Shown in pieces: positions 3,779 to 60,188 of a stretch of DNA of 64,000 nt; the first letter of the stretch is position 1; each line of letters opens with the position of its first letter. This stretch comes from Thuidium tamariscinum (lineage: Eukaryota > Streptophyta > Bryopsida > Hypnales > Thuidiaceae). The stretch is taken from assembly GCA_947034885.2 (NCBI GenBank), contig OX344751.2, forward strand, positions 42,065,082 through 42,129,081, given 5' to 3'. The notes beneath the pieces were generated by a model. That model was not told the DNA's origin, made no database searches, and saw nothing but the letters and a program-made list of their open reading frames with translations. A program made the position numbers and the translations under genes.

Positions 3779-5256
3779 TTAACCCTAAAGAATGAGTATG
3801 CATTTTTTGGCATTAGAGGAGATTTGGGCCTCTAAGAGATTGTAAGTTTTTACAGTCCAAAAACACAGAAATTGCCACGGGAACGCAATTTTGTAGGAAT
3901 CCTACGTGGTCAAGAGAGTGCCACGTCATTAATTTTTTTGGAACTTTTTTTCATATTTGAGGATCCAAAATATTGATGTATTGATTTGTTGAAATGCTAG
4001 CCTGACAGCGGCTAGCCATTTCCAGACCAATCTCAAGAACAGTCCTAAAACGGCGCGTTGAAACCTTCAAATCCCCTCTAATGCAACATAGAAATTTTGG
4101 GCAAGTACACGTGACTCAAGAATTGCATGTTTTGGGCTGAAATTTTAATGGAAGATGGGGACAAGGAATATCTTTTGTATGCACTAAATTTCATGACATT
4201 TAAAGATATGAGTCAAAAATTCATATGTTCCTTTTTTTTGTAAATGGGTAGTTTAGGCATATTAAAAAAATTCACCTTTTTTTAGAAATAGAAACTTGAA
4301 ATTGGTATTCTAGCATTAAGAAAAATATGAACCTCAGAAAAGACGATAAATTTTGCACCTCCATGATGCAATTACGGAAAAATCTAGAAAGAATAAAAAA
4401 ATTTGAATTTTTGAAGTTTGTAATCTGATTTGGTACTATTGTTGCCATGTCAGCACCATGTTAGACTGGCAATTTTATAATTTTATAATATTTAAAGAAA
4501 ATTAATAATAATTTTTTGATTGTTTTAGATTTGCACCCATAAACTACCAAAAATAAATTATTCACTATCCTTTCTTAGGTTCAAATTTTTCTAATGAGTT
4601 TTATTTATGTGAAAAGCTTTGAATCATTCCATTTTGATTGATGAGTCAAAAGTTATGAGGAGTTTTAGTTAGCAAGCATTTATAGACCCTCTACTCTAAA
4701 ATAAACTTTGAAAGCCTTTATTTTACACAATTATTATATTTTTAGGAAAAAATAAAATAGAATTAACATTTGTTTACTACAACATTGCAAGCATTGGAGA
4801 TTGACATATTCCAATTTCATAATTAAATTCTTAACAATTTTGTATTTTGAATCATTCTCTACTTCTTCCTACTTACTATTATTTCCTATATGTTGTACAA
4901 TTCCTAATGATGTGAATTTTCTTAAAGTATGTAGTCAACTTGTTTAGAAAAAAGAATCCAAAGAAGCACCACTGTTTTGGACATTTTTTCATAGAAATGT
5001 GAGCTTGTGTAATGTAGGTGCACAATTTTTTGTAGGGCCAAAACTAGGATTTCTTTGAATTCAAAAGGTCATATCTTTCAATCTTTGTAGTGGAAACTTC
5101 TGAAATTTTTTCACATATTCTCAAGTCATCATACTACAAGATCCTATGGTTAGATGCATCCAAAAACAAATTGATCAAAAATTGGGTACTTGTACTAAAA
5201 ATGATAGTTTTAGAGTAGTTTTAGTAAAAACATAGTCATTGTCTTTAAGGGGTTAA
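3779..5256 (-). mobile_element. TTAA element, family A (piggyBac-like ends), host of a nested MITE
   Basis: The left end reads TTAACCCTAAAGAATG and the right end, reverse-complemented, TTAACCCCTTAAAGACAATG. The inside aligns in reverse orientation with the elements at 44087-45497 and 58941-60188. There is no reading frame of note. A CATTAGAGG-type MITE (3811-4083) interrupts it about 30 bp from the left end; the intact version of that spot is at about 45455-45470. Without the insert the element is about 1.2 kb. Confidence 0.65.
3811..4083. mobile_element. MITE family M, copy 1 (CATTAGAGGAG inverted ends)
   Basis: The ends are CATTAGAGGAGATTT and AAATCCCCTCTAATG, an inverted repeat with one mismatch. 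The copy shares with 17322-17609 an internal ACGTGG-spacer-GCCACGT hairpin (about 3923-3948). It sits inside a TTAA element, and the undisturbed site in a sister copy confirms both edges. Superfamily is unclear because no clean target duplication is visible. Confidence 0.8.
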
Positions 5257-5819
5257 TTATGGACACACATATATTGTTCAATACAATCATGTATGATTAA
5301 TTAAACTTTTTTTTAAATTATATATTTTTAAATTATGTAAGCATGTGTATTCACAAACCTCAAACCTCAATATAAAAACATAAACCAAACCAAACACCTC
5401 AAGCTACCTCTTTCAAAAGGCAAGTCATTGTCCATTGAATCAACCCAAAGGATCATTGAAAAAAATCCTTACTTTCATAGGTTCACAAATGCCTTATATG
5501 TTACTTTAGAGTATGCCATTGTACTTTGTTCATCTAAACTTCATCACTTTAAAGTGATTGTCCTATTTTGGCCTATCTAAGAGTGAGACCCCATAGGGGA
5601 AGGGGGAGGTTTCTTTGTCACCGCGCCTCCTGATCACGCACTGTCTTGTCATTGCACGGCTCCCATAATCGTGGCTCAAAATGTTTCAAAGGTCAAGATT
5701 ATCACATTTATTGTTGTTGGAAGGCTAGAAGAGGATTTTTAATAGAAGCTATCTTGAGAAAGTTTGTGCAGCTACTTTACTTGTATATATAATTTTTTAT
5801 TTGTTTTTTTCAGAAGCAA
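5257..5819. other. AT-rich stretch without a gene
   Basis: I see no reading frame, RNA gene or clear repeat here. A short GC-richer patch lies at about 5585-5670 and matches nothing else in the window that I noticed. Confidence 0.5.
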
Positions 5820-6012
5820 ACAATTGTCTTTTGATGTTCACATAATACTCAGGTGATACTTAATGATATCTATATCAAAGTTAGGTGATACCTAGGTAAA
5901 ATTTGGCCACTAGTCTTAAAATATAACTACAATCTATTAAAATCATGACTAAAGGTAGATTTCACCCCCCAAATGAAAATTCCTTTACAAAAATAGTCAA
6001 CATCTTTGGATC
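5820..6012 (+). repeat. Dispersed repeat N, copy 1
   Basis: About 190 bp running from CAATTGTCTTTTGATG to GTCAACATCTTTGG recurs in reverse orientation at 11060-11252. It shares the CAATTGTC end, a central block around TAGGTGATACCTAGGTAAAA and the GTCAACATCTTT end. It is non-coding and unclassified. Confidence 0.6.
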
Positions 6013-6354
6013 TATTTTTGGATAGTAAATCATCTTAGAAAATTTACTAAAAAAATTAGGCCACTTGTATGATAGTCATGAGGACCTTTTGTATGAATCT
6101 CGAAGTCATTTAAAGCCAAAACACAAAAGTTATGACCAATTAAGAAATCGACACATAGTATGTGATGCAAAATAGGACATGTATTTCTTGCAATCATCCC
6201 TTATACCAATCCAAAGGACTTGACCTCTGAAAGTATTGAACTTGTTAAGGCCCCTCATTCTTGGTAAAAATTGATACCCACTCACATGGGTCTCATATTT
6301 AGTTCTTGGTGTTGAAATTCTTGGTTAGTCTCACTTTTGCTTGTGATTGAGTGA

Positions 6355-6596
6355 TATACTAGGCAACGTGCCAATATGTGAGCATATGAGCCTTGAATAT
6401 ACACATTAATAGATATCCTACAACCTTGAAGGTACTTATAACATAAACACCTATAATATAGGTGATTATCTACAACATAATTGTACTATCATCATAGGAA
6501 GTTTCTATATCATAAACACTTATACCATAAATGTATAGTTTTCTAGGCTTGTAACTATGCTCACACTTTGAGGCTTACATAATAGCAACCCCTATA
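6355..6596 (+). mobile_element. MITE-like family F, copy 1
   Basis: A 240-bp unit begins ATGTGAGCATATGAGCCTTGA and ends AGGCTTACATAATAGCAA, so the ends carry inverted ATGTGAGC-type motifs. Inside are several palindromic ACCTATAATATAGGT motifs. Further copies are at 10325, 41800 and 52045 (reverse). No coding capacity. Confidence 0.65.
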
Positions 6597-6735
6597 CACA
6601 AGGGAACATCAGGAAAAATGAAACTCCTGGGAAGTTTTCACACCTGGAACTGAATATGAGACCTTGTGACTCGGGCCATGCAAGGGATGCTGCTCCATGG
6701 GATGCCCTCCCAGGCTGCCACTCCTTGCTGAATTA

Positions 6736-7686
6736 GACCATCCCCACTGCAGCTCAGAATTTGATTCAAACCGGGTATTTGGCCGGGTCTGCCAACTATT
6801 TGTACCCTACCCCATACAAAATAAGATTCAAAATATGGTTGGGCGTAGGCAAATTTACTGGGCAGACGGAAAAGTACTAAGTTTTAGCCAGGGGCCGGAA
6901 GGAAGTTTGACTACACTTTTGACCCCAAAATCAAGGTACAGAACCTGCTGACCTTCCAATTTCAATTTTTTTTTTCAAAAATGAAATGTTTACAAGCAAT
7001 TTCATGTACAAAAATGAGACAATTCTTATCTAAAAAAAAGATGAGTTCATAGTCTCTATTATCCCAAACGGATTGGGACACCTCCCTCCACCCCAAGAGG
7101 ATGTAGGGAGCTCCTCTTCTCATGGAAACTCATGCTTCCCTCCATTCACTATGAAGAGTATGTAGGAAGAAGTGAGGATGCAATGGAGCAAGGCTCCTTA
7201 TATCCCCATGGGATGGAGGGAGGTGCTCCAACCCATGTGGGATATATGAATTTCAATTAGTTGGAATTAGGAATTCAAATTTTGAATTATGAAAATTCAA
7301 ATTTTTTTTTTGTTTTTGAAATTCAAAATTTGAATTCCTAATTCCAACTAGTTGGAATTCATATATCCCACATGGGTTGAAGCACCTCCCTCCACCCCAT
7401 GGGGATATAAGTAACCTTGCCCCCTTGCAAATTCAAAATATTTCGAGATCTCTTCTAGGAAAAAGAATGAGACCTCAAAGGTAAAAAAAAATTCAATGTT
7501 TTGGGGTTTAAGTCAAGGCAAAATGAACTGAAAAATTGATTAAAAAAAATTAAAACCTCTTTTAGAGGGTTGCTTCCACGGTTCAGCAGTGGGGCTCTCC
7601 AACTCTGGCGGGGATTGGTCATTATCACCTGCCCTGCAAAGGGCCTGATTTTGGGTCAAATTCTGATCCATGCAGTGGGGATGCTC
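6736..7686. mobile_element. Composite element with GACCATCCCCACTGCA inverted ends
   Basis: The left end (GACCATCCCCACTGCAGCTC, then CAGAATTTGAT) is inverted at the right end, where the reverse complement reads GAGCATCCCCACTGCATGG and then CAGAATTTGAC. This encloses about 950 bp. Both ends are GC-richer than the middle, which holds the long palindrome at 7188-7420. The GAGCAT-CCCACTGC type of end is common among plant MITEs. I see no transposase frame. Confidence 0.5.
7188..7420. repeat. Long palindrome, about 100-bp arms
   Basis: The arms 7188-7288 and 7320-7420 are nearly perfect inverted repeats (GCAAGGCTCCTTATATCCCC against GCAAGGTTACTTATATCCCC), separated by about 31 bp. The phrase CACCTCCCTCCACCCC also occurs outside the palindrome at about 7080. 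It could be a foldback MITE or, if transcribed, a hairpin RNA source. Confidence 0.85.
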
Positions 7687-7940
7687 TTATGTCCTCAGTT
7701 TGCTCCAAACCAAGTTAGGGAAGAAGTGCGGAGATTAGGCCCATTTCAACTGGGCCCTTTCTTCTTATCTCCGGGCCTTCTGCAGTGGGTCCTTGGTTGT
7801 TATCAACAGTCATGTGTGGCATCTGTTTGGATTGAATGTTGTTATAAAAATGGCCTCTTGGGCTCCAATCCCAAAGCAGGATTGCATGATGCATATATGC
7901 CTCCCCCCTGATACCCCCCCCCAAAGGAATTAAGTTAATA

Positions 7941-8163
7941 TAAGGCAGAGGCACCCAATGGCGTGCATGTACCCAATGGCGTGCGTTTCTATAGCGCACA
8001 ATGATTTCAGGCTTTAAATGTAGGTAGGCAGTACATGACTTATTTTTTTGACCTAAAAATATAAGCAGTCTACAGTCCCGCTACATTTCTGTTCTAGAAT
8101 GAATGACTGCTGTAGAAACGCATGCCATTGGGTACAGGCACGTCATTGGGTGCCTTTGTCTTA
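7941..8163. mobile_element. MITE family I, ~55-bp inverted ends
   Basis: The left end TAAGGCAGAGGCACCCAATG is matched by the reverse complement of the right end, TAAGACAAAGGCACCCAATG. Pairing continues through GTACCCAATGGC-TGCGTTTCTA. Total length is 223 bp. Only one copy is present, so the family is unassigned. Confidence 0.8.
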
Positions 8164-8595
8164 CGTTGGTAGACATTTCCAAATTCAGATCCAAATCATT
8201 TCAGTTTTTAAATCCAGATTTTTATTGTTGCAGGGTATGCACAAACTAAACAATTCTCATAATTGAAGACTGCATTTGTTTAAATATTGTTTCTTGTTAC
8301 CTGCATCATTTGGTGTCTTGGTCAGTTGGTCCCCTACTTGGATCACATCTTTATCTTCACCACAGTAAGTTAACCCTATAATGTCCCTGTGGACACTAAG
8401 TATCTGATATGACAGAGAATTCTTGTATGTAAGACAACATTGCAATTGTTCATCTTTGAAATTTTGTGCAAAAAAGGCAAGGTCATGAAGAGTGGTATGA
8501 ATACTTTCGAACTTTATAAAGTAGATGATTCCCACAGTTTCAAAAAGTATGATGTCTATGGAGATCAACTCACTAGTTTGTCCTTACGGTTGCAA
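8164..8595. other. No gene seen
   Basis: The longest open frame (8257-8568, minus) has no recognisable domain and does not look like a coding exon. No repeat structure stands out. Confidence 0.45.
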
Positions 8596-8826
8596 TGAAC
8601 TGGCCCCTTACTCAGCCACACCAAGTCATTGTAGAGGTGCAAGTAAAAATAAAATCCCCCTATTTTGTGCTTGATTAATTTAAGAATCTAGAATACCTCT
8701 ACAACTTCATTCGGGGCCTCTAATTACAAATATGAATTCAGAATTTGTAAAATTTATCATGCATGAAAAATTTAAAAATTCAGCATTTTTAAATTTCCCA
8801 AGTGGCTGAGTGAGGGGGTCAGTTCA
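8596..8826. mobile_element. MITE family H, complete copy
   Basis: The left end TGAACTGGCCCCTTACTCAG and the right end (reverse complement TGAACTGACCCCCTCACTCAG, trimmed) form an inverted repeat of about 26 bp ending in GCCAC. A right-half copy lies at 16455-16650 and a left-half copy at 41633-41775. Confidence 0.8.
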
Positions 8827-8875
8827 CCCTGGGCCATCCTTACAGGGTTCATGATGTGCAGGTTTGCAACAGCTA

Positions 8876-9204
8876 TAGGAGGAGGCTCTTGAATGGAGCG
8901 GGTTCTAAAATCGTGCCCTATCTTAAATGTACAGTACTTGTACATGTTGCATTTTCATAGCCTTCAGCAGTGTACTGACAGTGTACATTTTAACTAGGGC
9001 ACCATTTTAGAGCCCTATGCCCTTTCAACTTCAGAATTTGATAACTAATTCTAGAGAGCTCCAAAAATTATGAAACAACTTGGATTAGATGCTTATTCAA
9101 GCTGTCTTTCAAGGAAAATTTTCTGAAAAATATTTCAAAATGTTTGACCTGCCCAAAATTCTGTTCCAGCCCTTAGATGGTCGGTTTATGGACCTCCTCC
9201 CCTA
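8876..9204 (+). mobile_element. MITE family J, copy 1
   Basis: The element has imperfect inverted ends (TAGGAGGAGGCTC against TAGGGGAGGAGGTC). Next to one end is an internal hairpin built on TGTACAGTACTTGTACA-like sequence. The other half carries GCTCCAAAAATTATGAAACA, shared by all four copies (also 40753, 53901 and 58480). Confidence 0.75.
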
Positions 9205-9598
9205 AATTAGCTTTGAATTCTTCAGATACTGCAATAAGTGAATTCTAAGTTACATGGGGGAGTCTTGGTCATGGGGTGACTCAAATACTGAATTGAAGCT
9301 TCCAAGTTGACCCAAATTCTGCACAAGACTAAAAATGGAAATGGATCTATTGTCAGATGGAATATTTCATAGTTATCTGTTCATCAATAAGAATATTATG
9401 TTACTATTAAAACCCACATGACTATTTTGCGAGAACCTATGCATCATTGCTCTGAATCGTATCTGTCATGGAACATGCCAACATGCCATGGTCTTTGATC
9501 AACCATGGTTGTGGTATTGCATAGGAAAATTCATTCGGGGAGAAATAAGCATGCCAGAGTTTTGCTCAAGAGGAGATGTGAGGCAATTCATCACCTAG
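9205..9598. other. No gene seen
   Basis: AT-rich sequence between elements J and the TTAA element, without a supported feature. Confidence 0.4.
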
Positions 9599-10236
9599 TT
9601 AACCGCTAAATGCCCAAGGTGCCAAAATCTGGTGTTTGCAAGTTAAAGAAAACTTTATCAAGTTGCTATTTTTAGTAGTTTGTAATTTTGAAAAGTTCTT
9701 TTAGAAGTCTAGTTTCAGTGTCAAAAATTTGATGTGGAAAATGAATGATGGTGATTTTTCTATTCAAGATTTGGTGCAAGGGTACCCATTGCAATCTTGA
9801 CTTTTCGTAGTATTGAGAGCTCTTGGAAATGAGCCTCAAATACACTAAATTTTGGAGAAAAAATCACATTGAAAGTTCATTTACAAAAATTGTAGAGTAG
9901 ATTTTGAGAAGCCATAAATTGATTGGAGTTATGCATATTACTAGGCCCTTTAACCTCATATTTTTTTTGGTCACCAACTTTTTAGATTTGAGGATAGAAA
10001 GACTTCACATTGTTTTTGGAGTTTTAACACCCTCATGGTCAAACATTATAATCTTTCACTCCATATGTGATATTGTTTTCTTTTCTTTTCCTATGCAATC
10101 TCTACCATGTCTAGTTTGAATTTGTATAGTTACAATTTTTTTTAAATTAATACAACTTATCACAATGTTGGCATTTTGTTCATTTTAGACCAAATTCCAA
10201 GAAGCTCAAAACAAACCTTAGGCATTCAGGGGTTAA
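9599..10236 (+). mobile_element. TTAA element, family B, copy 1 (638 bp)
   Basis: The left end TTAACCGCTAAATGCCCAAG and the reverse-complemented right end TTAACCCCTGAATGCCTAAG agree at 17 of 20 positions and both start with TTAA. The inside aligns along its length with 36034-36682 in reverse orientation, and its right part with 42930-43200. It has no coding capacity, so it is a non-autonomous element. The TTAA target and CC-starting ends fit the piggyBac pattern. Confidence 0.75.
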
Positions 10237-11910: not shown

Positions 11911-13480
11911 ATGGCGCTGCCTGCCTGCCAAGCTTCCCACGCCATCGCGTCTTCTTCCACTTCCTCCATTGTCAAAGCCAAAGCCAAAGCATCCTCGGGC
12001 ACTGTCGCTGCGCGTCCCCTGTTCTCTGGACTGCGACGTCTGGAGCTCGGACTCTCGTCGAATTTCGAGAATTCGTTCGCTGCTTTGTCGCAGCAATTGC
12101 AGGTGCGTTTAATTGTCATGGACTTGGGGCAGTGGTGGTGATGTTCAGTAAGTCTCATGGTATGGAATTTGGTTGTATAGTAGCTCATTTGAATTACGAG
12201 TCTTGTGATTGTAGAGGGCCGGGGTTTTGCCAGGTAGCTGGTATGATTTGGAGTTTGGGCGATAGAATCTGTCTCTTGAACTGTTATGGTCTCTCTTTCG
12301 GATGATTTGGAGTTTGGACTATAGGAATGGTCCCTCGAACTGTTCTGGTCTCTGTTTCGGACGATTTGGAGTTTGCGTAATAGGATTGGGATCTTGAATC
12401 GATCGTAGCGGTGCCTGTTTCGGATAATTTGAAGTTTGGACAATGAAAATGGTGTCTTGAATCGTAATAGTGTCTGATTCGGATGATCTGGAATTTGGAG
12501 GACTGAAACAGAGGCTTTTAAAAAAAATATTGGATACAGAGAGTATTGTGGATCGGGATATGTGAGGTTGGGTGAATTTTGAATGTTCGTTTTTATGTTG
12601 TTGAATCAGTTGACGTGGGTTGTGGAAAATTGGCATGCGATGAAGAATTGAAAGGGGCTGTGGTGGTGGATTGGGATTGCAGGGGAGTAGCAGGGGCGTG
12701 GTGACGATGGTGGGCACGGGCAAGTTCTTCGTGGGAGGTAACTGGAAGTGCAATGGCACCACCGATTCCATCTCCAAACTGGTATCGGATCTCAACAACG
12801 CCAAGCTCGAAGATGACGTCGACATCATCGTCTCCCCTCCGTTTTTGTACATCAGCCAGGTGATCGGGTCGCTCACGAAGCGCATCGCCGTGGCCGCGCA
12901 GAACTCCTGGGTGGGCAAGGGCGGCGCGTTCACGGGCGAGATCAGCGCGGAGCAGCTGGTGGACGCGGGAGTGTCTTGGGTGATCCAAGGTCACTCGGAG
13001 CGCCGCCACGTGATCGGCGAGACCAATGCCATGATCGGGCAGAAGAGCGCGTACGCGCTGTCCACAGGCCTAGGCGTCATCGCGTGCGTGGGGGAGAAGC
13101 TGGAGGATCGCGAAGCCAATCGCACGACGGCCGTGGTGTTCGAGCAGCTGCAAGCATTCAAGGACGCCGTGGGACAAGACTGGTCGCACATCGTGGTGGC
13201 GTACGAGCCCGTGTGGGCGATCGGCACGGGCAAAGTGGCTTCCCCGCAGCAAGCGCAGGAAGTGCACGCCGCCATTCGGCAATGGCTGAAGGAGAAAGTT
13301 TCCCCAGAAGTTTCTTCCAAGACGCGCATCATCTACGGCGGGTCTGTGAACGGAGCCAACAGCGCGGAGCTCGCGACGCAAGAGGACATCGACGGCTTCC
13401 TCGTGGGCGGCGCTTCGCTGAAGGGAGCGGAATTCGCCACCATTTGCAACGCCGGAACAGCCAAGAAGGTCGCCGCTTGA
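11911..13480 (+). CDS. TPI: Plastid triosephosphate isomerase (two coding exons: 11911-12102 and 12683-13480)
   Basis: The enzyme interconverts dihydroxyacetone phosphate and glyceraldehyde 3-phosphate in the Calvin cycle and triose metabolism. Exon 1 (64 codons) begins GCAGCGATGG and encodes a Ser/Ala/Lys-rich, acid-poor leader typical of a chloroplast transit peptide. The donor is CAATTGCAG|GTGCG and the acceptor GGGATTGCAG|GGGAGT, both phase 0. Exon 2 holds the whole (beta/alpha)8 barrel: GGNWKCNG with the substrate Asn and Lys, IQGHSERRH with the catalytic His, VAYEPVWAIGTGK with the catalytic Glu and loop 6, then YGGSVNGAN and GFLVGGASL for phosphate binding. The protein is 329 residues, usual for a plastid form with its leader. 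All catalytic residues are present. The exons are much GC-richer than their surroundings. Lack of introns in the barrel is unusual, because seed-plant TPI genes have many. Confidence 0.95.
12240..12505 (+). repeat. ~60-bp tandem repeat in TPI intron 1
   Basis: The motif GATTTGGAGTTTGG and its variants occur at about 12246, 12303, 12363, 12426 and 12486, giving five diverged units of 57-63 bp. Units share TCTGTTTCGGAYGATTTGGA-type sequence followed by a CTTGAAYYGT-like block. It fills about half of the 580-bp intron (12103-12682). Confidence 0.85.
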
Positions 13481-22374: not shown

Positions 22375-22379
22375 TATAT

Positions 22380-36033: not shown

Positions 36034-36682
36034 TTAACTCCTAAATGCCTAACATCTTTTTAGAGCTTCTAGAAATTTGCTCTATAATGAACAAAAAGTC
36101 AACTTTATAATGAGTTTTAAAAAAAAAATTGAAATGTAACCATACAAATTCAAACTACATATATTAGAGATCACTTAGGAAAAGAAAACATGACAATATC
36201 ACTTATGAATTGAAAGATTATAATATTTAATCATGAGGGTGTTAAAATTGTGTTAATGATGTGAAGTCTTTTAACCCTCTTTTCAAAAGTCAAATCTAAA
36301 AAGTTGGTGACCAAAAAAATATGAGGTGAAGGGCCTAACATGTATAATCCTAACCATTTTATGGCTTCTCAAAATCTACTCTACAATTTTTTGAGTGAAT
36401 TTCTAATGTGATTTTTTTTCTAAGATCTAGTGTATTTGAGGCTCATTTCCAAGAGCCCTCAATACAAAAGAAAGTCAAGATTGCAATGGGTACCCCTGTA
36501 CAAAATCTTAAATAGAAAAATCATAGTCAATGGTTTTCAATATCGGGTTCTTGATGCTTAAAGTAGATTTTCAAAATAATCCTTAAAAAACATAAACTAC
36601 TACAATTAGCAACTTAATTAGGTTATCTTTAACTTCAAAATTTTCAAAAACTAGGATTTGGTGCCTTAGCAATAGGGATTAA
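36034..36682 (-). mobile_element. TTAA element, family B, copy 2
   Basis: It aligns along its length, reversed, with 9599-10236: the GTACCC-TTGCAATCTTGACTTTC block, the CATTTCCAAGAGC block and GGTGACCAAAAAAATATGAGG, shortened here. Ends are TTAACTCCTAAATGCCTAAC and, reversed, TTAATCCCTATTGCTAAGGC, both bounded by TTAA. Confidence 0.65.
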
Positions 36683-37423: not shown

Positions 37424-37946
37424 TTAACCCTTCATTGCCGAAGCTCCAAACAACTGCTAGAGGTTGTCACAGCATGTAGTTTTGATCCAATCAATTGATT
37501 TCGAAAGACTTCACTTCACCATTGAAATCAATTCATCAACAGTTACTACTTGTGTAAGGTAGGTACACCCAAAAGCGCCCTGTTCCTAAAAGCGCCATCT
37601 ACAGTGTACATACATTTCCAAAATCAGTCATGTTCTTAGACTATAGATGGCGCTTTCAGAAACAAACATTGACTATTAATAACTTTTGCATACGGTATCC
37701 AAATCTTGCATTCTTTGGTGCGTTGGAACATACTTTCACTTGCCAACAAGACTACATAAAAATCCGAACTAATTAATAGTAGGAACTAGGCTCAGTATGA
37801 ATAAGTGGCGCTTTTGGTTGTACCCACCTTAGATCAACTCCGATCATAATTTTTGTGAATGGGTTTCAAACTTACAACATTTGAATGTACTTTCTTCTTC
37901 AAGATTTAGTAGACAGAAACCATCCCCATAGGTGATGAAGGGTTAA
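37424..37946. mobile_element. TTAA element with TTAACCCTTCAT ends (523 bp)
   Basis: The left end TTAACCCTTCATTGCCGAAG and the reversed right end TTAACCCTTCATCACCTATG agree at 16 of 20 positions, with the first 12 identical. A second inverted-end element (37556-37830) is nested inside. Confidence 0.7.
37556..37830. mobile_element. Nested element Q with AAGGTRGGTACAMCCAAAAG ends
   Basis: The ends AAGGTAGGTACACCCAAAAG and, reversed, AAGGTGGGTACAACCAAAAG are inverted repeats continuing into CGCC. Its body (GCGCTTTCAG, TTGGTGC, the GGCAAGT block) is related, in reverse, to the tandem array that starts at 38054. Confidence 0.75.
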
Positions 37947-42929: not shown

Positions 42930-43200
42930 TAGATTTTACATGTAAAAATAGGATTGAAAGATTTGAATTTACTTTCAAAATTGAAGCATCTTTAGTTGAT
43001 CAAACATTATAATCTTTCAATTCATAAGTGATAGTTGTGTGTGTTTTTTCTAATGTGATCTATAATATGTCTAGTTTGAATTCATCATGTTACAATTTTT
43101 TTTTAAATTGATAGAACTTAAAAAAACTTTGGGCTTTTGTTAGTTTTGAGTGGAATCCAAGAGTCTCCAAAAAAAAAGGCCTTGGGCATTTAGGGGAAAT
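42930..43200 (+). mobile_element. TTAA element family B, right-part fragment
   Basis: It aligns with about 9990-10236 (AAACATTATAATCTTTCA, ATGTCTAGTTTGAATT, then GGCATTTAGGGG). The terminal TTAA has become AAAT, so this end is no longer intact. Confidence 0.6.
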
Positions 43201-43806: not shown

Positions 43807-44086
43807 TTAATCCTAAATGCAAAAACTAATTTTTTTGACAACATATTAAATTTGGTCTCTTTACTACAAATGGAGTTTTTATTTATTTTTCTTTGAAATT
43901 TTCGTACGATATGTGTCTAAAAATTAACTTTAAGGCCCAACAATTTTCATAACTTTTGACTACATGAATAAAAAGTTATTGCATAATATGTGACTTTTGT
44001 CGCTTAGTGGGCAACCCGAGCAACTCAAAAATCTTCTTTATAAAACAATTCTTCTTAAAATAAAAATTTGAAACTTATTCTCTAGA
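43807..44086 (-). mobile_element. TTAA element family A, partial older copy
   Basis: It starts TTAATCCTAAATGC and aligns in reverse with 44750-45030 and 45220-45480 (GTTGCCCACTAAGC, GGGCCTTAAAG). It stops exactly at the TTAA where 44087-45497 begins, so the younger element seems to have landed in it. Confidence 0.6.
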
Positions 44087-45497
44087 TTAACCCCTAAAGG
44101 TTTTTGACTATATTTTCAAATTGCTCCAAAATTGTCATTTTTAGAACAATTAGCAAATTTTTGAAAAAGAAACATTTTTGGAATTATATAACCATGGGAT
44201 CTTAGTATACTAGTTTGAAAACATGTAGAAAAAATTTCAGAAATTTCAGCCATGTAAATTGCAAGATATTAGTATTTGAAGTTACAAAAATCCATTTTTT
44301 ACCACTGTAGAAATCCGGGCAACTGTTGTTTAGAAGGTCATAATTTTATGAAAAAATGTCCAAAATGATTGTAATTCTTTAGATTCAGTCTTCAATTTAA
44401 GTTGGCTACATGCTTGAAAATTTTCAAATCATTTGGAATTGTACAACATGTACAAAAGAAATAATAAGTAGAAAGAAGTAGAAGATGATTCAAAATACTA
44501 AATTGTTAACAATTTATTTATAGAATTGAAAAATGCCAATCCCAAGGGTTGTAATATTATAACAAACAATCTACATCCAATATTTTTTTTATTTTTTTTA
44601 AAAAGTATTTAAAATTGAATTAAATAAAAGACTTCAAAGTTTATTTTAGACTAGACATTCTTTAACTTCCTATAAACTACCCACAAACTAAAACTCCTCA
44701 TAACTTTCATCTCATTAATCCAAATGGCATGAGTCAAAGCTTCCCATGTCTATATAAATCTAGAGAACTAGTTTCAAATTTTTATTTTAAAAAAAAGTGA
44801 TTTTTGAAGAAGTTTTTTGAATTGCCTGGGTTGCCCACTAAACAAAGAAAATCACATATCATGCCAATATCTTTTAACCATGTAATCAAAAGTTATGAAA
44901 TATATTGGGCCTTAAAGCTACTCCTTGGGTGCATGTTTTGTGAAAATTTCAAAGGAAAAACAAAACAAAACTCCATCCATAGTGAGTTGTCCAAAATCAC
45001 TATGTTACCAAAAAAAACGGAGTTTTAGTTTGGCTTGTATAGAAATAGAAAGCTTTCAATCATTCCATGTGGATTCATGAAATGGAAGTTATGAGGAGTT
45101 TTAGTTTGTGGGTAGGTATAGAATCTTTGAAAACCACACCAACCCACAAACTAAAAGTCTTCATAACTTTATCTCATTAATAGGGAATTATTGAAAGCTT
45201 TCTATGTCCATACAAGTCTAGAGAATCAATTTCAAATTTTTATTTCTTAAGAAAATATTTTTTGAAGAAGTTTTTTGAGTTGCTCGGATTCCCTGCCAAG
45301 CAACAAAAATCACATATCATGCAATAACTTTTTAACTATGTAGTCAAAATTTATGAAAATTGTTGGGCCTTAAAGCTACTCCTTGGGGCATATTGTTTGA
45401 AAATTTCAAAGAAAAAAAATTAAGAGCTCCATTTGTCATGAGCTACCCAAAATTGCTATGTTGCAAAAAAAATGCAGCTTGGTCCTTTAGGGGTTAA
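44087..45497 (+). mobile_element. TTAA element, family A, best-preserved ends (1,411 bp)
   Basis: The ends are TTAACCCCTAAAGG and CCTTTAGGGGTTAA, a perfect 14-bp inverted repeat beginning with TTAA. The 44655-45036 block is repeated in direct orientation at 45131-45495. The left half aligns with 58941-59500. No protein-coding frame is present, so it would need a transposase in trans. TTAA duplication and CCC-starting ends are the signature of piggyBac-type transposition. Confidence 0.8.
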
Positions 45498-46502: not shown

Positions 46503-46735
46503 TTAACACCCTTGAACGACGTTGCGGACGTTTGGTGTCTACCGAATGACAAAGAATCTTTCCTTCTAGGATAGAAATGCAACTTTTCATCCTCGGTATT
46601 GGGGGTGGAAAGGGAAGATCTTCTATAGTACTTTGACTTCCAATGCATTTATTTGGCTTTTTCAAAGTAGGTGATGTCACACGGTATCAAAATGCATGGT
46701 TTCCACGGCCACTAGTCTGTCCTTTAAGGGTTTAA
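46503..46735 (+). mobile_element. TTAA element, family C, copy 1 (233 bp)
   Basis: TTAACACCCTTGAACGAC and, reversed, TTAAACCCTTAAAGGACAG form imperfect ends. The inside matches 53397-53595 (TTCATCCTCGG, GGGAAGATCTTCTATAG, CTTTGACTTCCAATG, CACGGCCAC). Confidence 0.6.
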
Positions 46736-47403: not shown

Positions 47404-48417
47404 TTAACCCATTATTTTGGTGCAAATTGAAGACAAATTGCCATAAAAAAAACATTGCTTATAAAGCAACTATGTGAGGACCTAAAGTATCTTCACGTAG
47501 TTTCAAAGACAATTCAAAGAAATGCAACTTTTGCATCTAATGTCCAAATTTTTAAGAAAAACTTGTTGGAAAAAATGAACTTATTCTTCTAATTTGGGTC
47601 ATAAATTTTTTGAATCAATCCAAGATATATAGATTTTTTGAAAGCCAATCAAGGTTCACAAGATGAATTTGACTCCATCAAACTGCATTTGATGCTTGCA
47701 ACTTTAGGATCTTGTATCTCCTTCATCTAATGTTTGTTTTCATAAAAAAAATATTGGGTTATGTTCAATTTGAAATCTAGTTATTGTGGTAGAATTCCAT
47801 ATCAATCCAAGTAGTGTTGAATGTTAAGGAGCAATTTAAAGTTCAAAATCCAAACATTTTTGGATTAGAGTGAACTTTGGTAGTTAGTTTCTTTTTCATA
47901 TAGTGTCCTTTTCTAGTAGTTTTAAAAAAAAGTTGCAGACTCTAGTTTAATTTGTGTGAGTAAAATTTCATATCAATCCAAGAAGTTTAGTAGAAGAAGG
48001 TTTAACTTGAGGGTGTATTTCTACAACCTTTTATGCTATTTTCTAACATTTCAAAGTCATGTTGCTAATATAGTAAGTCAAATAAATAATTTTTTTTCCA
48101 CTAATGTGTTTGTATGTTGGTTTTGAAGTTGTGTATAGTTCAATTTCATTTCTCATATGAGTAGGTTTAGAAATCAAACTTCACCTTTTTTTTTTCAAAG
48201 ATAATTTCACCATCCTGACTTTTTCTACACTAAAACATTATAATACTGCAATTTATGTTGTTCATATGACTCCAAAATTGATTCACATCATTTGCAATAT
48301 ATGTAGTATAAGATTGTATGGTTGAGATTTCTATACCTTAGTGACATTTAGATCTATAACACTCCAAAAAAAATGATGTCTTTAAATCCTAAAAGGCCGT
48401 GGGCTTATAGGGGTTAA
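47404..48417. mobile_element. Possible TTAA element with weak ends
   Basis: TTAACCCATTATTTTGG on the left and, reversed, TTAACCCCTATAAGCCC on the right. Only the right end is a strong match and no sister copy was found. Confidence 0.35.
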
Positions 48418-48429: not shown

Positions 48430-49803
48430 TTACAAGGGAAATTGCATCCTATTTGATAGAATTCTGTCAACTCTATTGTAGATTAGGAGTACATGTTTTG
48501 GACACTTTTTTGATAGAATTCCGTCAATTCGGTTGTCAATTCAGCTATCAATTTGGACAAAGATACACGTCAACAAGTCTTCCTCTCACTCTTTTTCCAC
48601 CATGGATTTTTTTCTTTGTCACCATGGATTTTTTTCCTACATCACTTATTCCAAAAAACTATTTTTCAAAGATTTAATAAAATAGGTAAAATAATGGCTA
48701 GAAAAATAAAATTAGATGAATTTTTTTCAAATGAATGATAAATTTTTAGATGAAATGATTTTGGATGATTATAATTTTTTTATTTCTTTTTATCAAATTT
48801 CAAGAATGTTGACCAAAACAAATTAAGATCATGGAGTTTATTTATTCACTAAATTGTTTTACTTCATGAATCATTTGTATTTTGTGAAATGAATGGAGAA
48901 GTGAAGCTCTTTATATACACATATGAAGGTAGGAGGTCGAGCAACCTATATGAGATATAACTCAAGTTTTGCATCCCAAAATTCTTTTGACATTTCAAGT
49001 TTCCAATCAAAAGTTATGAAATTTCAAAGAGGTGTTTGGAATTGTTCTTGTTGTATTTTTTGAAATTTCCTCTTTGAAATCCGTCTATAACTTTTGATTG
49101 GAAACTTGAAATGTCAAATGGATTTTTGGACTTGAAACTCGAATTTATATTCTAACTAGTCTTGGTTCAAATGTTTTTGAAAAAAGACATTCTACTATGC
49201 TTAAATGAGGTTTGAAATCTTAATTTTAATACAAAATTTCAGGTTTTTAACTTAACTATGAGCTTTCACAACTTTGAGAATTCATATATCTCATATGGGT
49301 TGCTCGACCTCCTACCTCCGTATGTGTATATAAAGAGCTTCACTTCTCCATTCATTTCACAAAATACAAATGATTCATGAAGTAAAACAATTTAGTGAAT
49401 AAATGAACTCCATGATCTTAATTTGTTTTGGTCAACATTCTTGAAATTTGATAAAAAGAAATTAAAAAATCATAATCATCCAAAATCATTTCATCTAAAA
49501 ATTTATCATTCATTTGAAAAAAATTCATCTAATTTTATTTTTCTAGCCATTATTTTACCTATTTTATTAAATCTTTGAAAAATAGTTTTTTGGAATAAAT
49601 GACGTGGAAAAAAAATCCATGGTGGCAAAGGAGTGAGAAGAAGGCTTGCTGACGTGTATCTTTGACCGAATTGACAGCTGAATTGACAACCAAATTGACG
49701 GAATTCTATCAAAAAAGTGTTCGAAACATGTACTCCCAATCTACAGCAAAGTTGATAGAATTTTGTCAAAATTACTGTCAATAGGACATAGTTTCCCTTA
49801 TAG
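48430..49803. mobile_element. 1.4-kb foldback element with >500-bp inverted arms
   Basis: The arms 48430-48960 and about 49262-49803 are near-identical inverted repeats over more than 500 bp. Shared blocks include GATAGAATTCCGTCAATT, AAATAGGTAAAATAATGGCT and GTAGGAGGTCGAGCAACC. The left arm has an extra ~22-bp duplication around CACCATGGATTTTTTTC. A second hairpin (48976-49032 with 49069-49129) sits inside. The open frames at 48453-48738 (+) and 49506-49781 (-) are the same arm read twice, not genes. Confidence 0.9.
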
Positions 49804-52230: not shown

Positions 52231-53396
52231 CTCGTCAACAATGAGTATTTACTTGAAGTCCAAAAGCAAGGCTAGGCAAGATTAACTTAAATTTATGATG
52301 TTTAGACAACCATTCAAAATTGAAGAAGGTATAGACATTTGGAATAGTGTAGATACCTCATTTGATTTTTTAAAGAAGATAAGATGTTATTTGTTTTAAA
52401 AATGTATAGAATATTGAATCGAGATTACTATAAATGTCTAACACAAGTCCTTAGAGAAGAATATTGTGATTTTATTCAATTATTTCCATATCCAAATATT
52501 AGGCAAGGCAAGAGAATAATTTACTTTAAAACTAGCCAAGAATTATTATAAATATTTATTGACAAAGTTTCTAGTGATAAAACAATATCTACTTATACCT
52601 AGGCTTAAAGCTCACGTGCTTACATATCTATGCTTACATGCTAGCATCTTTGAATCTGAATGTACTTTTAAGTTTGATTTACATCAAAAATCGTATAAAA
52701 AACACTTCAAGAAAATCCTATATGATTATTTTTAGTGAAGATGGCATCATCCAACAACAACTTAATTCTTGAAGGAGTCTAGGAAGTCTAATTAGAAAGA
52801 AACCGTTTTGATGAATATATATATTTACTCATATAGAGTTCATATATTCACAAAATTATGAATAATTTATTGTAAAGTCAAATAATAATATTTCAATTGA
52901 AAAAGAAACTGCATATTTTAGATATTCTAGAATATACACATAGGATCTATAAAGGGTCTAATACATGCCAAACTTGGATGGCATATACTTTGGGCCCATC
53001 AAAATATTCTCATGGTAATCAATCTTGGTGTGGCAAGCACTGAGCTTTCAAATCTAAGTCGAATGTGCTTCATTCAACATTCTGCTTGGTGATTGATAAA
53101 TTGACTACTATTAACACACATTTGGTGAACACAATAGTGCAAAATAAGAGTTTTGAAGGATCTTCAAAATTATGTGTTAAACTTTCATTGAATCAAATCA
53201 AACAAGTGTTAGTATGGATGCTCTTACATCAATACTTTACTAAAAACATGGTTCATTTTAAGACTAGAGAAACCATCCCATACCCACATGACTAGTTTAA
53301 CCACTTGTAAATCTTCTTGTGATCATATTTTCACACCAAGTTTTCCCTCGAGCATCGGAATTGTAGTTGTACGTGTATGTTGTTCAAATTTTGTGC
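52231..53396. other. No gene seen
   Basis: AT-rich sequence; the plus-strand frame at 53065-53295 has no recognisable domain. Confidence 0.35.
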
Positions 53397-53595
53397 TTAA
53401 TCCCTAAGCAATGCGCATGCCATATTCTGGTCGATGAAATACAATTATTCATCCTCGGAATTAGGGATAAAAAGGGAAGATCTTCTATAGGGCTTTGACT
53501 TCCAATGAGAGCTTTTGAATTTTTTGGGACCAATGATTCCCACGATATCAAAATTCAGGATTTTCACGGCCACCGACTCATCGTTTAGGGGTTAA
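53397..53595 (+). mobile_element. TTAA element, family C, copy 2 (199 bp)
   Basis: TTAATCCCTAAGCAATGCG and, reversed, TTAACCCCTAAACGATGAG agree at 15 of 19 positions. The body matches 46503-46735. It is the shortest complete TTAA element in the window. Confidence 0.7.
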
Positions 53596-54974: not shown

Positions 54975-56288
54975 TTAACCTTGAAGTGCTCCAACATCCA
55001 ATTTCTAGATGATGTACATATTGAAATTCTTGTTTCTTTCTCATTACATCATGGATGAAAGTCATCCTAATTTTTAGAGATACTTTATAAAGTTGTTGTC
55101 CTATCCAAGGATTGGATTTGGTATCACTAGAATACATATTTTTCTAGATTACAAATGTAGAAGGGTCATTGCAAGAAACACCGTCCAAAAGCGTAGAGTT
55201 TTCACAGTACTCTTTTTTTCCTTTGGGAGGGCTTTAAAATTAGAAAAACAATTTTTAAAAATAATAAAAAAATATGTTTCATGTATATGTCTCTAAGAAG
55301 AAGATACTCTAGAAAGGAAAATCATAGGAAAAATCTTTAAGTAGGAGAACTAGAAAAGTGCAAAATCTCATGAAAATTGATACTTTTACATATTAATTTG
55401 AAAAAAATAGGAAAATCAATTTTTTTTAAAACTAAAAATTGGACATTTTTAAAGAGTTGACTTTGATGAGATTTCATCAAAAGAACAATCTTAGAACTAT
55501 CTTCAATGCTCAAAAATTGTGCGCAACGGAAAAAAATTTGCACTCATATGGAAGACATGAAATAATGTATTTTTAGATTTCATTCAAAAGTTTTAAGTTT
55601 TATACCTATATGTATAGACCATGAAGTTTTGTTTATAAATCATTAAATTTGGGCACTCATAACGTAGTGATTTTTGTAAACTACAAACTGTGACGCTCAA
55701 CGAAAATTATTTTTAAATATAAATTGTTTTTTCTTAATTTTTGAAAAATAAGAGATCTAATAACCTTCAAGTTAGGTATGTTCAATAAAAATTTCATGTT
55801 CATTGGACTTAATCTTCAAAAGTTATAGTAGACAACAAAAAAGTGGTTCTCATTGTGACATGAAATAGGACCGGTGTTTCTTACAATGACCCAGAAGATT
55901 GTCAAGTAGTTGACAAAGCCAAAATTGCATTAACTCTAGTTCAAATGTAGAATTGCAAAAATGAGGTCATAGAATCAAAGAACACAAAAATTTCCAGAAA
56001 ATCACCATTTGAAGAGAACCTCATTTCAAATCCTTTCCAACAAAATGTACTAAAAAATTGACAATATTTTGCTTGTAATTGAATTCAAGTAGAATTTTGA
56101 TTTTTCACTTTCAAAATTTATAGAAAAATATTGGCAATAACAATGGTAAATCTAAATGTATGGATATAATCTAAAATTCAAACTCTAAAACTCTTATTTT
56201 CATCTCAATTCCAAAATATTCTTCCTAGTAGTACTTTATGATGATTTTTCCAAGATTCTAGAGATGAATCTCAACACTTAGGGGTTAA
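54975..56288. mobile_element. Possible TTAA element (1,314 bp)
   Basis: TTAACCTTGAAGTGCTCC and, reversed, TTAACCCCTAAGTGTTGAG are imperfect inverted ends (12 of the first 16 bases agree). No sister copy was found, so the pairing is provisional. Confidence 0.45.
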
Positions 56289-57219
56289 CGTGGACCAACT
56301 TATTATTGCATTGATTTGCAATTTGACTATCATGGGGTGAATCCCAAAAGGGACCATACATATTTTTTCAGAGGTGAGGACTTGTTTCATGAATCAAACC
56401 CATGTAGAATTATAATTTTTTGAAGTTTCCAACTTGAAATTACAAAAGCACCAATAGACTAGGGTCATAAACACCCTAATAACAACCCAAAACCACGTTT
56501 TTATGTACCTACCAGCATTTAAGTATTTACCAATGAATCAATTATTGACACGTTGATATTAATGCATTGATTTTTGTCAAATTTTTGAACAAATTCAGCT
56601 CATTTTTGGAGAGATGTAGATGATGGAATGGATGGAATTGGGACCAAACGTAGGATGATGAGAATGAGTTGGAAATGGAATTAGGTTGGTCCACCTTATA
56701 CTATTGATTTTTAATCCTCGGATAATTATTTTGTTCGATTTTACCTAATTTGGTGTTTAGAATTTTTTAGTAGCCCCCCCCCCCCCCCGAGAAAAAGGGA
56801 TGAATTCTTCAAAATTATTTCCTATAAATACAAGGTTTACCAAAATTGTGGATGAATATTATTAATTTTTTTGAAACATCAAGGGTGACATATGTAAGTG
56901 ACGGACGGATGAGCAAATACATACAATATGTCTAACTAGTGTGCATTCATACCATTGTTTACCAACTTCTACGATTGCCCTTTGGATTCTATAGAGATTG
57001 GAATAATCATTCCCGGAATCCCTTTGGATGGATTTAGTTTATTCTATCCAATACCATAGGCTAGCCGCACAGTGGAACTAATAGCCATGTAGTCAATTGG
57101 TGTCTTGGTTTGAGAACATAGTAGTGAAATTCCCACACAAGGTCAAGAGTGCCAAGTAATGATCACCATGCCCGCATCAATGATGTAATTTCTCAATGGA
57201 CTAAAAAATTGCAACGTGG
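56289..57219. other. No gene seen; contains a C15 run
   Basis: AT-rich sequence with a run of 15 C at 56774-56788 and no supported gene. Confidence 0.5.
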
Positions 57220-58080
57220 GAAAGCTCCAACTTTTGGGGGAGCGAAAAGAAGCCCCCCAATTGGTTAACAATGTTACGTTCCGGGGAGTGTCGCGTTACC
57301 ATTACACACACAAAAAAACCAAAAGAAAACTATTTTTTTAACGCATTTTGACATGTCTCCATGGATTGCGGATCACATGTTGTGCGACGACGGAGCCGCC
57401 ACCACTCCACTGCAGGCATGATCCCACAACACCCCCCCAATTCCCGGCACCAACGGCAACACAGGGCCACTGAACTTATGTCACATTCTGTCACTCGCGC
57501 GGCCACTTTCCGCAGTTGCTCCTCATTTTTCCCCTAAAGGCCGGGAGGAGGGTCTGTAAGGTAAAGAACTCCAAGACTTTTGGCATAGAAATTTGTATAG
57601 AAATTGAGTTTCCTTTCCTTCAAGGAAAGAACTGAAAAAAAGGTTAAAAGACGTCCGCAACATGAATGCTCCTCGCACAACAGACTTCCCATAACTTTCG
57701 GGACTTTGGGGACAAGGGTCCCGTCACCATGGCCAATGGCGGCTCGCACCGTCCGTCCTGTTCAATTCCTTTGGGCTGGCCGGGAAGTTGCCTGCCCTGC
57801 TCACACATAAGTTAGTCAGTGGCCTTTCCATGGACTCCCCAATTTTTATTTTTTTCGGCACGTTCTCCCAAAACAAAACAAAAGATGGAAGGCAAGTTGA
57901 GGGAGGCCCCCAACATGAGTGGCCATAGGAGAACTTACGGGAGTCCGGTCGGGGCACAAGAACGTGGTTGGCCCAACCACGGGCAAAAGGGCCCTGAAAG
58001 CTATACAATTTGACCATGGGGGTTGATTTTATCATTAGCTTTGGCTTCCCAATTTTGTGAGGTCAGACAGTAGTCACCCA
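57220..58080. other. GC-richer segment without a recognised gene
   Basis: An abrupt compositional island with many short overlapping frames (57534-58035) and no recognisable domain. An A/T-homopolymer border follows at about 58130-58200. Confidence 0.4.
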
Positions 58081-58204
58081 CACTTTTGCTACGATAGACC
58101 GATGGAGAAAGGGGGTCGTTGTTGTTTTCAGTTTGTTTTTTTCATTTTTTTTTAAACAAATGAACGAATTCTGTTGCGTTTTTTTCATTTTTGAAGAAGT
58201 GCCA

Positions 58205-58345
58205 TAGTGGCATATAAAATGTTATAGTGGTGCTCCCAAATTGCAACATTCATCCACTTATTGGATGTATAGTATGATTTTCATCCATAATTAGGCAATT
58301 TCATCTAATATTTTTTTAAATTTCAAAGTTGTTTGGCGATTTCGT
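58205..58345 (+). repeat. Dispersed repeat R, copy 2
   Basis: Counterpart of 47205-47380, sharing GTGGTGCTCC and CAACATTCATCCAC. Confidence 0.6.
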
Positions 58346-58479
58346 CCATTTTTTTTGGAAATTTTTATAACCTTTTTTAGCTAGATTTTTTTTCTAGTAC
58401 AATCTGGCACCAAGAAGCCCAAAAGAAAAACACTAGTTGTGTTTACAAAAATTCTGCTAATAACATTCTTCACTAGTTG

Positions 58480-58798
58480 TAAAGTAGGAGGTCCATAAAG
58501 CCACCATCTAAGGGTTGGAACTAAATCTTGGAGAGGTAAAACGTCTTGATGTGTTTTTAGGTAAATCTTCTTCAAAAGACAAGTGAAATAGGCATCTAAC
58601 TCAAGTCGTTTCATATTTTTTGGAGCTTTGTGGACTTAGTTACAAATTTTTGAAGTTGAAAAAAGGTGGTCACTTTGAAGTCATCAAAAGTGACCACCTC
58701 TTGAAATGTGCAAATTTGATATGTTGAAGAAAGCAAAATGTACTTTTGAGTCATGTTTGCTTTTAATGCCTTGTTGGAGTTTGAGCTTCCTTCCTTAG
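58480..58798 (-). mobile_element. MITE family J, copy 4 (keeps the LINE empty site)
   Basis: TAAAGTAGGAGGTCCATAAA and, reversed, CTAAGGAAGGAAGCTCAAAC bound it. It contains an uninterrupted AAGAGGTGGTCACTTTTGATG (shortened, read in reverse), the site where the 40.8-kb copy was hit by a LINE. Confidence 0.8.
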
Positions 58799-58940
58799 TC
58801 TTGTTTCAAACACTTTTCTATGGTCTCAAATTTTTAATGAAAATTTTTAAAAATATTTTTGAAGATAAAAAACACCTTAGTTTTCTTGGAAAATACATTT
58901 CATTCTAATCCATGCACATGAGCGAAAGATGTGCCACTTT

Positions 58941-60188
58941 TTAACCCCTTATATTCCTTTACTATATTTTTACCAAAAACACCCTCCAATTGACAATTTT
59001 AGTTTAAGACCCAAATTTTGGATAAAAAACATTTTAAGACCTATATAACCATAAGATCTTGTAGTACATTGACTTGAAAACATGTGGAAAAAATTTCCAC
59101 CATGTGATTGCAAGATATTAGCATTTGAATTCACAAAAATTCTTCTTTCCGCCCTACAAAAGACTAGGCAACTGCACTTTACAAGCTCACATTTGCATTA
59201 AAAAGTCCCAAATGGAAGTGCTTCTTTAGATTTATTCTTCAAGGCAAGTTCACTACATGCTTGAAAATTTTAGGTCATTCGGAATTATACAACAAGTAGG
59301 AAAAAAATAGTAAAGAGAAAAAAAATAGATAATGATTCAAAATACTAAATTGTTAAGAATTTTGTTATGAAATTGACAAATGCCAATTCCAATGGTTGAA
59401 ATGTTGCAATAAACAATCTACATACTATGATTTTTTTTTCTTCAAGAAAATTGAAAATTGAATAAGACAAAGGATTTAAAAGTCCTTTACTTCAAAATAG
59501 GAAATCTATAACTGCCTACAAACAAAAACACTTCATAACTTTTGACTCAATGATGAAAGTGGAATGATTCAAAGCTTTATATATATATAAAATCAATCCC
59601 AAATTTTTGTTTTTGAAAAAATTGATTTTTTTAATTGCCCAAACTAGCTGTGTACAAATAGAAGTAATATATTAGACCATGACTTTTTACTCAAATTTAA
59701 AAATGTCATGATTTTTAGTGCACATGAAATACATTTGTCATCCCTACCTTCTAATGAATTTGGCATTAGGGGAGATTTGAGGCCAAGGGAGGGCCATTTC
59801 AAGGCTATTTCCTTACCTATTCCTTGTGTTGTCTAGAAACAGTAAATTAGCCTATAATGGCTGAATTTTCAAAAAAAATTAAAAAAAATTATTATATTTT
59901 TCAAAAAATTCAAAAATTGTTAAGAAATCTGAAACTAATTAAAAATTCTTTTCAATTTTTCTATAAAAGAATAATTAATAAATGAATAAAATACTATTTT
60001 TTGATGTTGTAGTCTCTTTTCCATATCATATTGCTAATGTGGCATAGTCCGGAAACTCAAGAGAACTTGCAATCTTCTAATGCCCTTGAATCTCTCATAA
60101 TGGCCCAAAATATAGAAATCTTCAGTTGCATGTACTTGTCCAAAATTGCTATATTTCTAAATTTAGCAAATTAGTCCTTTAGATTTAA
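58941..60188 (+). mobile_element. TTAA element, family A, with nested MITE M
   Basis: The left end is TTAACCCCTTATATTCC and the interior aligns with 44087-44650 (GAAAACATGTGGAAAAAATTT, shortened; GCAAGATATTAG; CTACATGCTTGAAAATTTT). After the nested element at 59763-60102 it resumes with TGTCCAAAATTGCTATATTT and ends in a decayed GTCCTTTAGATTTAA. Confidence 0.6.
59763..60102. mobile_element. MITE family M, copy 3
   Basis: The left end CATTAGGGGAGATTTGAGGCC is clear; the right end (GAATCTCTCATAATG) is diverged. It again lies inside a family A TTAA element, though at a different spot from copy 1. Confidence 0.6.

Follow-up and report, generated by a model that had tools for sequence, protein, structure and literature searches.

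Non-coding TTAA-bounded elements in the moss Thuidium tamariscinum as probable derivatives of native piggyBac-superfamily transposons

Transposons of the piggyBac superfamily are best studied in animals. In the two solved systems, piggyBac of Trichoplusia ni (PDB 6x67) and piggyBat of Myotis (PDB 9c0f), a DDE_Tnp_1_7 transposase with a DDD triad and a Cys-rich C-terminus goes together with a TTAA target and CCC ends, and the mechanism, in the available portion of PMC7351741, consists of hairpin excision, seamless repair and TTAA targeting. For plants, the accessible text of PMC10813416 speaks of piggyBac isolated from insects, fungi and plants, a plant review, in the part available, lists PiggyBac among the DNA superfamilies in plants, and a 2017 paper records use of the insect element in rice and, for Physcomitrium, no test so far (PMC5505980, available part). 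We found no literature report of native piggyBac in any bryophyte, a weak negative given that subscription journals were thinly covered; among the bryophyte papers listed the word turned up in two, in one merely within “piggybacking” and in the other for the insect element as a tool. Here we analyze a stretch of 64,000 nucleotides from T. tamariscinum (contig OX344751.2, positions 42,065,082 to 42,129,081; hereafter the window), in which an earlier note had delimited ten TTAA-bounded intervals and read them as an undescribed family of piggyBac-like miniature inverted-repeat transposable elements (MITEs). We put the probability at roughly 0.93 that these intervals are mostly old, non-coding deletion derivatives of several native piggyBac-superfamily families in the moss genome. 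Their bodies fall into groups that have little in common beyond their ends, namely A with A1, B, C, D and E; the earlier note had recognized unrelated bodies with common ends, which held for A/A1, B and C and was extended by D and E.

The moss elements share with piggyBac and piggyBat the transposase domain, the triad, the Cys-rich C-terminus, the target and the CCC ends, and differ from them in their host, in the long N-terminal extensions of their transposases, in falling into a clade without animal sequences, and in size, since the three families for which both ends were seen (in a locus pair or a single locus) measure about 5.1-5.6 kb against about 2.5 kb (T. ni IFP2 measures 2,472 bp according to the part of the source available). 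They resemble the Acropora CMITEs, as described in the available part of PMC2872659, in being non-autonomous TTAA elements with piggyBac-like ends, and Acropora likewise offers an allele pair with and without an insertion; unlike the CMITEs, which are about 100 bp long with a conserved interior, the moss elements span about 200-950 bp with several unrelated interiors, number thousands of first-look candidates per group, and include a group, A1, for which the full-length partner was located. Angiosperms have a PiggyBac MITE superfamily, which the accessible text of PMC10004981 only lists, whereas the moss shows transposase-bearing elements, near-identical copies and uninterrupted sites. PiggyBac-labelled repeats have also been recorded in a seed-free land plant, the fern Ceratopteris, where they amount to 1,230 fragments, 122 kb and 0.00% of the assembly (PMC6890710, available part), in contrast to about 13% of our one window. 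The kind of element is thus already known, and the suggestion that it was undescribed extends no further than our own searches, PMC10813416 and PMC10004981 naming piggyBac for plants and angiosperms in their accessible parts; the host, the load and the apparent recency look new.

The genome assembly analyzed comprises 19 contigs and 363.2 Mb; loci cut from it are designated L001, L017 and so on, and W58941 denotes the window element at 58941. A search of the genome with the PF13843 (DDE_Tnp_1_7) profile returned at least 116 domains (116 scored of 659 candidates, all above the curated cut-off), many of them holding stop codons, while the profile gave no match in 14 control genomes; all six transposases tested matched it. 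A 5,096-bp element with a 1,023-codon open frame was found in ten loci with TTAA on both sides in 10/10, unrelated flanks and two variable columns in 5,096, the ten copies having been chosen for equal HMM (hidden Markov model) score, a choice that favors identical copies and tells against taking their likeness at face value. An eleventh locus of this family, L032, is 99.9% identical over 991 residues, and one copy (L034) has landed at the TTAA boundary of a group A element. Further families, represented by two or three similar copies each, have TTAACCCTTAAATGACCC ends (5.6 kb, copies 99.6% identical) or TTAACCCCTCACCGCC ends (5,094 bp, 99.7%), or show one end, TTAACCCCTAAACGCCCGAGG (99.0%) and TTAACCCTTTAAGGACC (97.6%). 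TTAA also stands at both ends in L043/L044, L045/L046 and L030, and inverted ends that loosely conform to the CC(C/T)T definition taken from the available part of PMC2872659 were seen as CCCCTAAAC/CCCTGAAAC, CCCTTAAATG, CCCCTCACCG, CCCCTAAATG/CCCCTAAGTT and CCCTTTAAGG. Among 19 further transposase 3′ flanks of 1.9 kb each, an outward-facing end was present in 12 and an inward-facing one in none, the outward pattern being slightly looser. Stop to stop, the open frames at eight loci run to 693-1214 codons. These data bear out the assignment to the piggyBac superfamily, with DDE_Tnp_1_7 transposases lying inside elements that have the same kind of ends, and they replace the single transposase of the earlier note by several piggyBac families. 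Because the full-length copies are nearly identical, transposition was likely recent and is perhaps ongoing.

With plant-like mutation rates, the two changes among the ten copies correspond, very roughly, to an age of thousands of years. A relic of a piggyBac transposase C-terminus adjoins a group A element at L018:1501-1930. A 5,035-bp element with A ends at L001 contained short frames only and, at E 1e-5, did not match the transposase of the ten-copy family.

The closest link between a non-coding group and a transposase-bearing element concerns A1, a non-coding group of about 930 bp. The element at C7:1354927-1360069 (L030), 5,143 bp long, is bounded on either side by TTAACCCC ends and contains an open frame of 774 codons that encodes a piggyBac domain. 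Its left end matches the A1 element L010_501 at 72% over 207 bp and its right end at 76% over 307 bp, and L009_501 also matches the right end (541 bp at 65%). A further copy, L054, matches it at 98.6% over 1,589 bp and reaches 4 bp beyond the right end. Since both terminal regions are common to the two, A1 is very likely an internal-deletion derivative of the 5,143-bp element, and sequence here links a non-autonomous group to its full-length partner.

The ends themselves are abundant throughout the genome. The motif TTAACCCCTAAA occurs 19,746 times (9,906 + 9,840), compared with 111 (68 + 43) for its reversed control, in keeping with the proposed expansion, and the longer end CCCCTAAAGGACCAA occurs 3,671 times (1,848 + 1,823) against 0 + 1. 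TTAA lies immediately 5′ of CCCCTAAAGGACCAA in 3,265 of the 3,671 places (1,646 + 1,619; control 0 + 0). Among the first 100 listed places of TTAACCCCTAAA there were 21 neighbor pairs no more than 1.6 kb apart, of which 17 faced inward, 12 of these 17 with a spacing of 930-952 bp; 1,000 strand shufflings gave a mean of 5.4 inward pairs and a maximum of 12. Copy edges were examined in 16 copies on contig C1 that had two exact ends 600-1,100 bp apart, yielding 43 pairwise alignments of at least 600 bp. Homology among group copies began exactly at the T of TTAA in 21/43 and stopped exactly at the last A in 29/43; as for the remaining starts, 14 lay within 15 bp outside the TTAA edge and eight more than 80 bp inside. 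Genome-wide alignments thus put the copy edges at TTAA, as the earlier note had predicted.

Evidence for uninterrupted sites was taken from L017 alone, that is, from one insertion, the sole one with clean relatives. There an A element sits within a B element, and seven aligned B stretches cross the insertion point: five of them (L006, L012, L020 and two B elements of the window) have a single TTAA, again as predicted, and two, both from L004, have TTAC. The joined flanks of W58941, which are A1 remains, have relatives at ten places in nine loci, with 59-68% identity across the junction. L012, considered as a nested B/A pair, was rejected, as the B copy ends near 1153 and the A copy starts at 1546, so that it provides no empty-site case. 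A 327-bp insert in L049 was likewise set aside, not being TTAA-flanked.

Among solved structures, the moss transposases matched piggyBat (E 1.9e-26) and piggyBac (E 4.2e-24), the sole two sequences matched at E 0.001. D310, D399 and D517 are invariant in 7/7 aligned moss transposases, at positions that align with the piggyBac and piggyBat chains, whose catalytic residues in piggyBac we take to be D268/D346/D447. C615, C618, C635, C641, C646 and H651 are also invariant in 7/7 and constitute the C-terminal Cys-rich domain. Protein searches returned 106 relatives and, in another case, 125 (120 listed), mostly environmental sequences, the named ones being animals. No named plant was present among the listed relatives; because the search depends on shared short words and proteins of transposons often go unannotated, this is weak evidence for absence from other plants. 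In a FastTree phylogeny of 48 hand-chosen sequences (midpoint root, deeper nodes weak), the seven moss transposases and 13 environmental sequences formed one clade with a support of 0.999 that held no animal sequence; our guess is that its environmental members derive from mosses.

The host was assessed from a triosephosphate isomerase (TPI) frame at 12644-13480, which covers the whole protein without introns. Its identity amounts to 89-90% with three JGI sequences, 88% with Ceratodon and Physcomitrium proteins, and up to 77% with named seed-plant rows among the matches listed. Because TPI is nearer to Ceratodon and Physcomitrium than to the listed seed plants, the host is a land plant and, by this one protein, most likely a moss; the earlier note had already proposed a land plant.

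Within the window, our alignments gave the following elements (positions are those of the window):

3779-5256, minus strand: group A non-autonomous element with both TTAA ends, interrupted by unrelated inserts
9599-10236, minus strand: group B element matched end to end by the L006 element (76.6%); edges at TTAA
11286-11476, minus strand: group C copy missed by the earlier note; 70.6% to 46503-46735, one edge at TTAA
36034-36682, plus strand: group B element with an end-to-end match to another copy; edges tested genome-wide
37424-37946, unstranded: interval of the earlier note, unconfirmed; inverted ends of 12 bp (TTAACCCTTCAT) around an interior made up largely of another element
43006-43196, minus strand: group B fragment missed by the earlier note; 71.7% over 191 bp
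43807-45497, unstranded: outer group A element of foldback build, hosting the inner copy 44087-45015; right end 45497
44087-45015, plus strand: inner group A copy; 78.8% to L013_501 positions 932-25
46503-46735, plus strand: group C element of 233 bp; 80% to L020:799-1029 (TTAA ends), partial matches to other C copies
47476-48417, plus strand: group E element with its right edge at TTAA and its left edge close to 47476, not at 47404
53397-53595, plus strand: group C element of 199 bp; 39 main matches of 2,706 first-look candidates
54975-56288, plus strand: group D element, 584 bp without the nested 55163-55892; homology to L041 (one relative) ends exactly at the right TTAA
58825-60914, unstranded: group A1 remains in the pieces 58825-58936 and 60215-60914, missed by the earlier note; the A element 58941-60188 is inserted within
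58941-60188, plus strand: group A element with a degenerate right end and a foreign insert of about 341 bp at 59764-60104
61294-61487, minus strand: group C copy missed by the earlier note; 67% to 46503-46735

All ten intervals originally claimed have TTAA at their start and end. Six are sound at both ends, three have wrong or half-tested edges, and one (37424-37946) is unconfirmed; the class and host kingdom of the earlier note were right and some edges wrong, and the presence of near-identical copies of elements that carry a transposase makes the finding stronger than it first was. In the element at 3779-5256, positions 4514-5256 match L005_501 (75.6%) and 4083-4331 match L013_501 (69.5%), the first 33 bp being assigned by eye, and the inserts are a foreign one of about 272 bp with terminal inverted repeats (3811-4082) and about 250 bp near 4331-4580. 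The “perfect 14-bp ends” formerly ascribed to 44087-45497 belong to two nested A copies: the outer element aligns to L005 in three parts (43812-44087 with 926-663, 45039-45126 with 658-571 and 45131-45497 with 573-932) and its left end at 43807 reads TTAATCC (by eye; position checked), and the inner copy keeps an intact left TTAA end and has lost about 25 bp of the other.

For the group B element at 36034-36682, scoring covered 40 non-self matches out of 4,903 first-look candidates. On the left, 21/40 start exactly at the first base and 32/40 within 3 bp; on the right, 15/40 end exactly at the last base and 16/40 within 3 bp; and none of the 40 extends more than 10 bp past either edge. The group C element at 46503-46735 has a single full-length relative, L020, and the alignment with it begins 5 bp inside the left edge and stops 2 bp beyond the right edge. 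At 53397-53595, 18/39 main matches end exactly at the right edge and 33/39 within 3 bp, and at the left side the main matches set in near 53436, with five additional short ones starting at 53396-53397. For 47404-48417, with 39 main matches of 5,571 first-look candidates, 38/39 have their start no earlier than query position 223 (about 47476), and 1/39 spans 47404; on the right, 8/39 end exactly at 48417, 10/39 within 1 bp, and one extends 10 bp beyond. For groups D (54975-56288) and E, an edge at TTAA was seen for the right side only. At 37424-37946 the sole repeated part found was an inner TA-flanked element at 37555-37832.

By sequence comparison, the explanation we favor would operate as follows. 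A piggyBac transposase made elsewhere would recognize CCC(C/T)TAAA-type ends, excise the element at TTAA and insert it at another TTAA, and elements would often land within one another, giving the nesting seen in the window. The transposases identified here presumably act on these ends, groups A, B, C, D and E may be driven by relatives of the sampled families, and transposition may still be going on. As for the name, the size usual for MITEs, below 500 bp (available part of PMC2872659), applies to C alone (199-233 bp), D measuring 584 bp. Because C alone falls below this size, “non-autonomous element” is a safer term than MITE, a label that fits in that the copies are non-coding and TTAA-bounded and fits badly as regards their length.

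Several observations weigh against this explanation. Typical A, A1, B and E copies of about 630-950 bp (single copies 627-1470 bp) are long for MITEs. An intact TTAA is absent beside 406/3,671 CCCCTAAAGGACCAA end motifs; many matches of the B element at 36034-36682 end about 15 bp before its right edge, a shortfall that falls where the window copy's own end deviates from the usual motif; and 28/39 group E matches end before the right edge of 47404-48417. One window B element among the five TTAA copies at the L017 site has a 9-bp gap just 5′ of TTAA, and for the joined flanks of L007, L009 and W58941 relatives span the junction at lower identity with no clean TTAA. No TTAA end was found within 1.9 kb in 7/19 transposase 3′ flanks, and 5 of the 12 3′ ends (L060, L061, L062, L066, L069) carry CCCCA instead of CCC(C)T. 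Group A, a distant A1 relative, matches only parts of the termini of the 5,143-bp element, at lower identity, and A1 alone has a full-length partner, none having been identified for B, C, D and E.

This last point also leaves room for mobilization by another superfamily that targets TTAA or TTA, such as Kolobok, or PIF/Harbinger with its 3-bp TWA target, the likeness to piggyBac then being restricted to the ends. Kolobok elements also make TTAA duplications; the full element with both A1 termini, however, encodes a piggyBac transposase, several piggyBac families in this genome carry TTAACCC ends of like kind, and the B copies at the L017 site keep a 4-bp TTAA in 5/7, and we regard this alternative as very improbable. 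Chance pairing of TTAA sites in AT-rich DNA would agree with the wrong edge at 47404, the wrong pairing of 44087 with 45497, and the behavior of TTAAYCC, which the earlier note used as a marker and which was not enriched in the window (29 sites against 24.8 expected, the mean of 60 first-order random sequences with a maximum of 41), a count that also speaks against our own explanation. TTAACCCC (9 against 2.1) and TTAACCCYTAAA (3 against 0.07) were enriched; the window by itself was nevertheless weak evidence, and the case therefore had to rest on the whole genome. There, the edge tests, end-to-end copies and motif counts argue against chance, which the copy edges refute for A, B and C, so that chance pairing appears even less probable as a general account, and a minority of intervals, for instance 37424-37946, could be chance pairs.

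The likeness of the ends to CCCTAAA, the common plant telomere unit, suggests a third origin, in interstitial telomeric repeats or a telomere-related insertion. The close motif neighbors are mostly inward pairs, 12/17 of them at 930-952 bp, with TTAA directly 5′ of the motif; other families have CCCTGAAACG, CCCTTAAATG or CCCCTCACCG ends, which are not telomeric; and tandem CCCTAAA arrays were not present at the element ends examined. A telomeric origin is accordingly the least probable of the three, and derivation from native piggyBac families accounts best for the intervals.

On our reckoning, piggyBac-type elements occupy about 8.4 kb, or 13%, of the window when fragments and the half-confirmed groups D and E are included, an addition of our own; a strict library search alone gives 5,766 bp (9%). 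The window has three exact 12-mers and the genome on average about 3.5 per 64 kb, so that, by extrapolation from this one window, the elements could plausibly make up around a tenth of the genome; such a load bears on the masking and annotation of the moss genome. We lean, with some reserve, towards the wider view that a deep piggyBac branch, apart from the sampled animal branches, has long been native to all or part of the mosses, that it is still jumping in this species, and that its derivatives account for about 10% of the sequence here. A plant lineage rich in open, near-identical copies would show that piggyBac can thrive in a land plant, and studies could draw on the moss families for plant-native transposases and ends.

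The window contains further repeats of other kinds. Nested in the group D element at 55163-55892 is an unrelated element of 730 bp that has inverted ends of 21 bp (GGGTCATTGCAAGAAACACCG) and is flanked by AGAA on either side; it had 7,650 first-look genome candidates (the query also held group D sequence), its best copies were 93% identical, and it appears to be a separate, very abundant family. The TA-flanked element at 37555-37832 is 278 bp long with AGGTAGGTAC inverted ends, and has copies in L038 (93%) and L019 (84%) and a part in L050. The inserts at 3811-4082 and 59764-60104 have CATTAGRGGAGATTTGRGG-like ends, and each is nested near one end of a group A element (by eye). A large foldback lies at 48452-49770, with arms 97% complementary over 346 bp. 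Finally, a 72-bp unit recurs in frame at 1144-3640, in 33 register copies that code leucine-rich repeats (LPKEVGSLSSLTTLDLSGCSSLET), and this stretch looks like the leucine-rich-repeat part of a plant disease-resistance-type gene.

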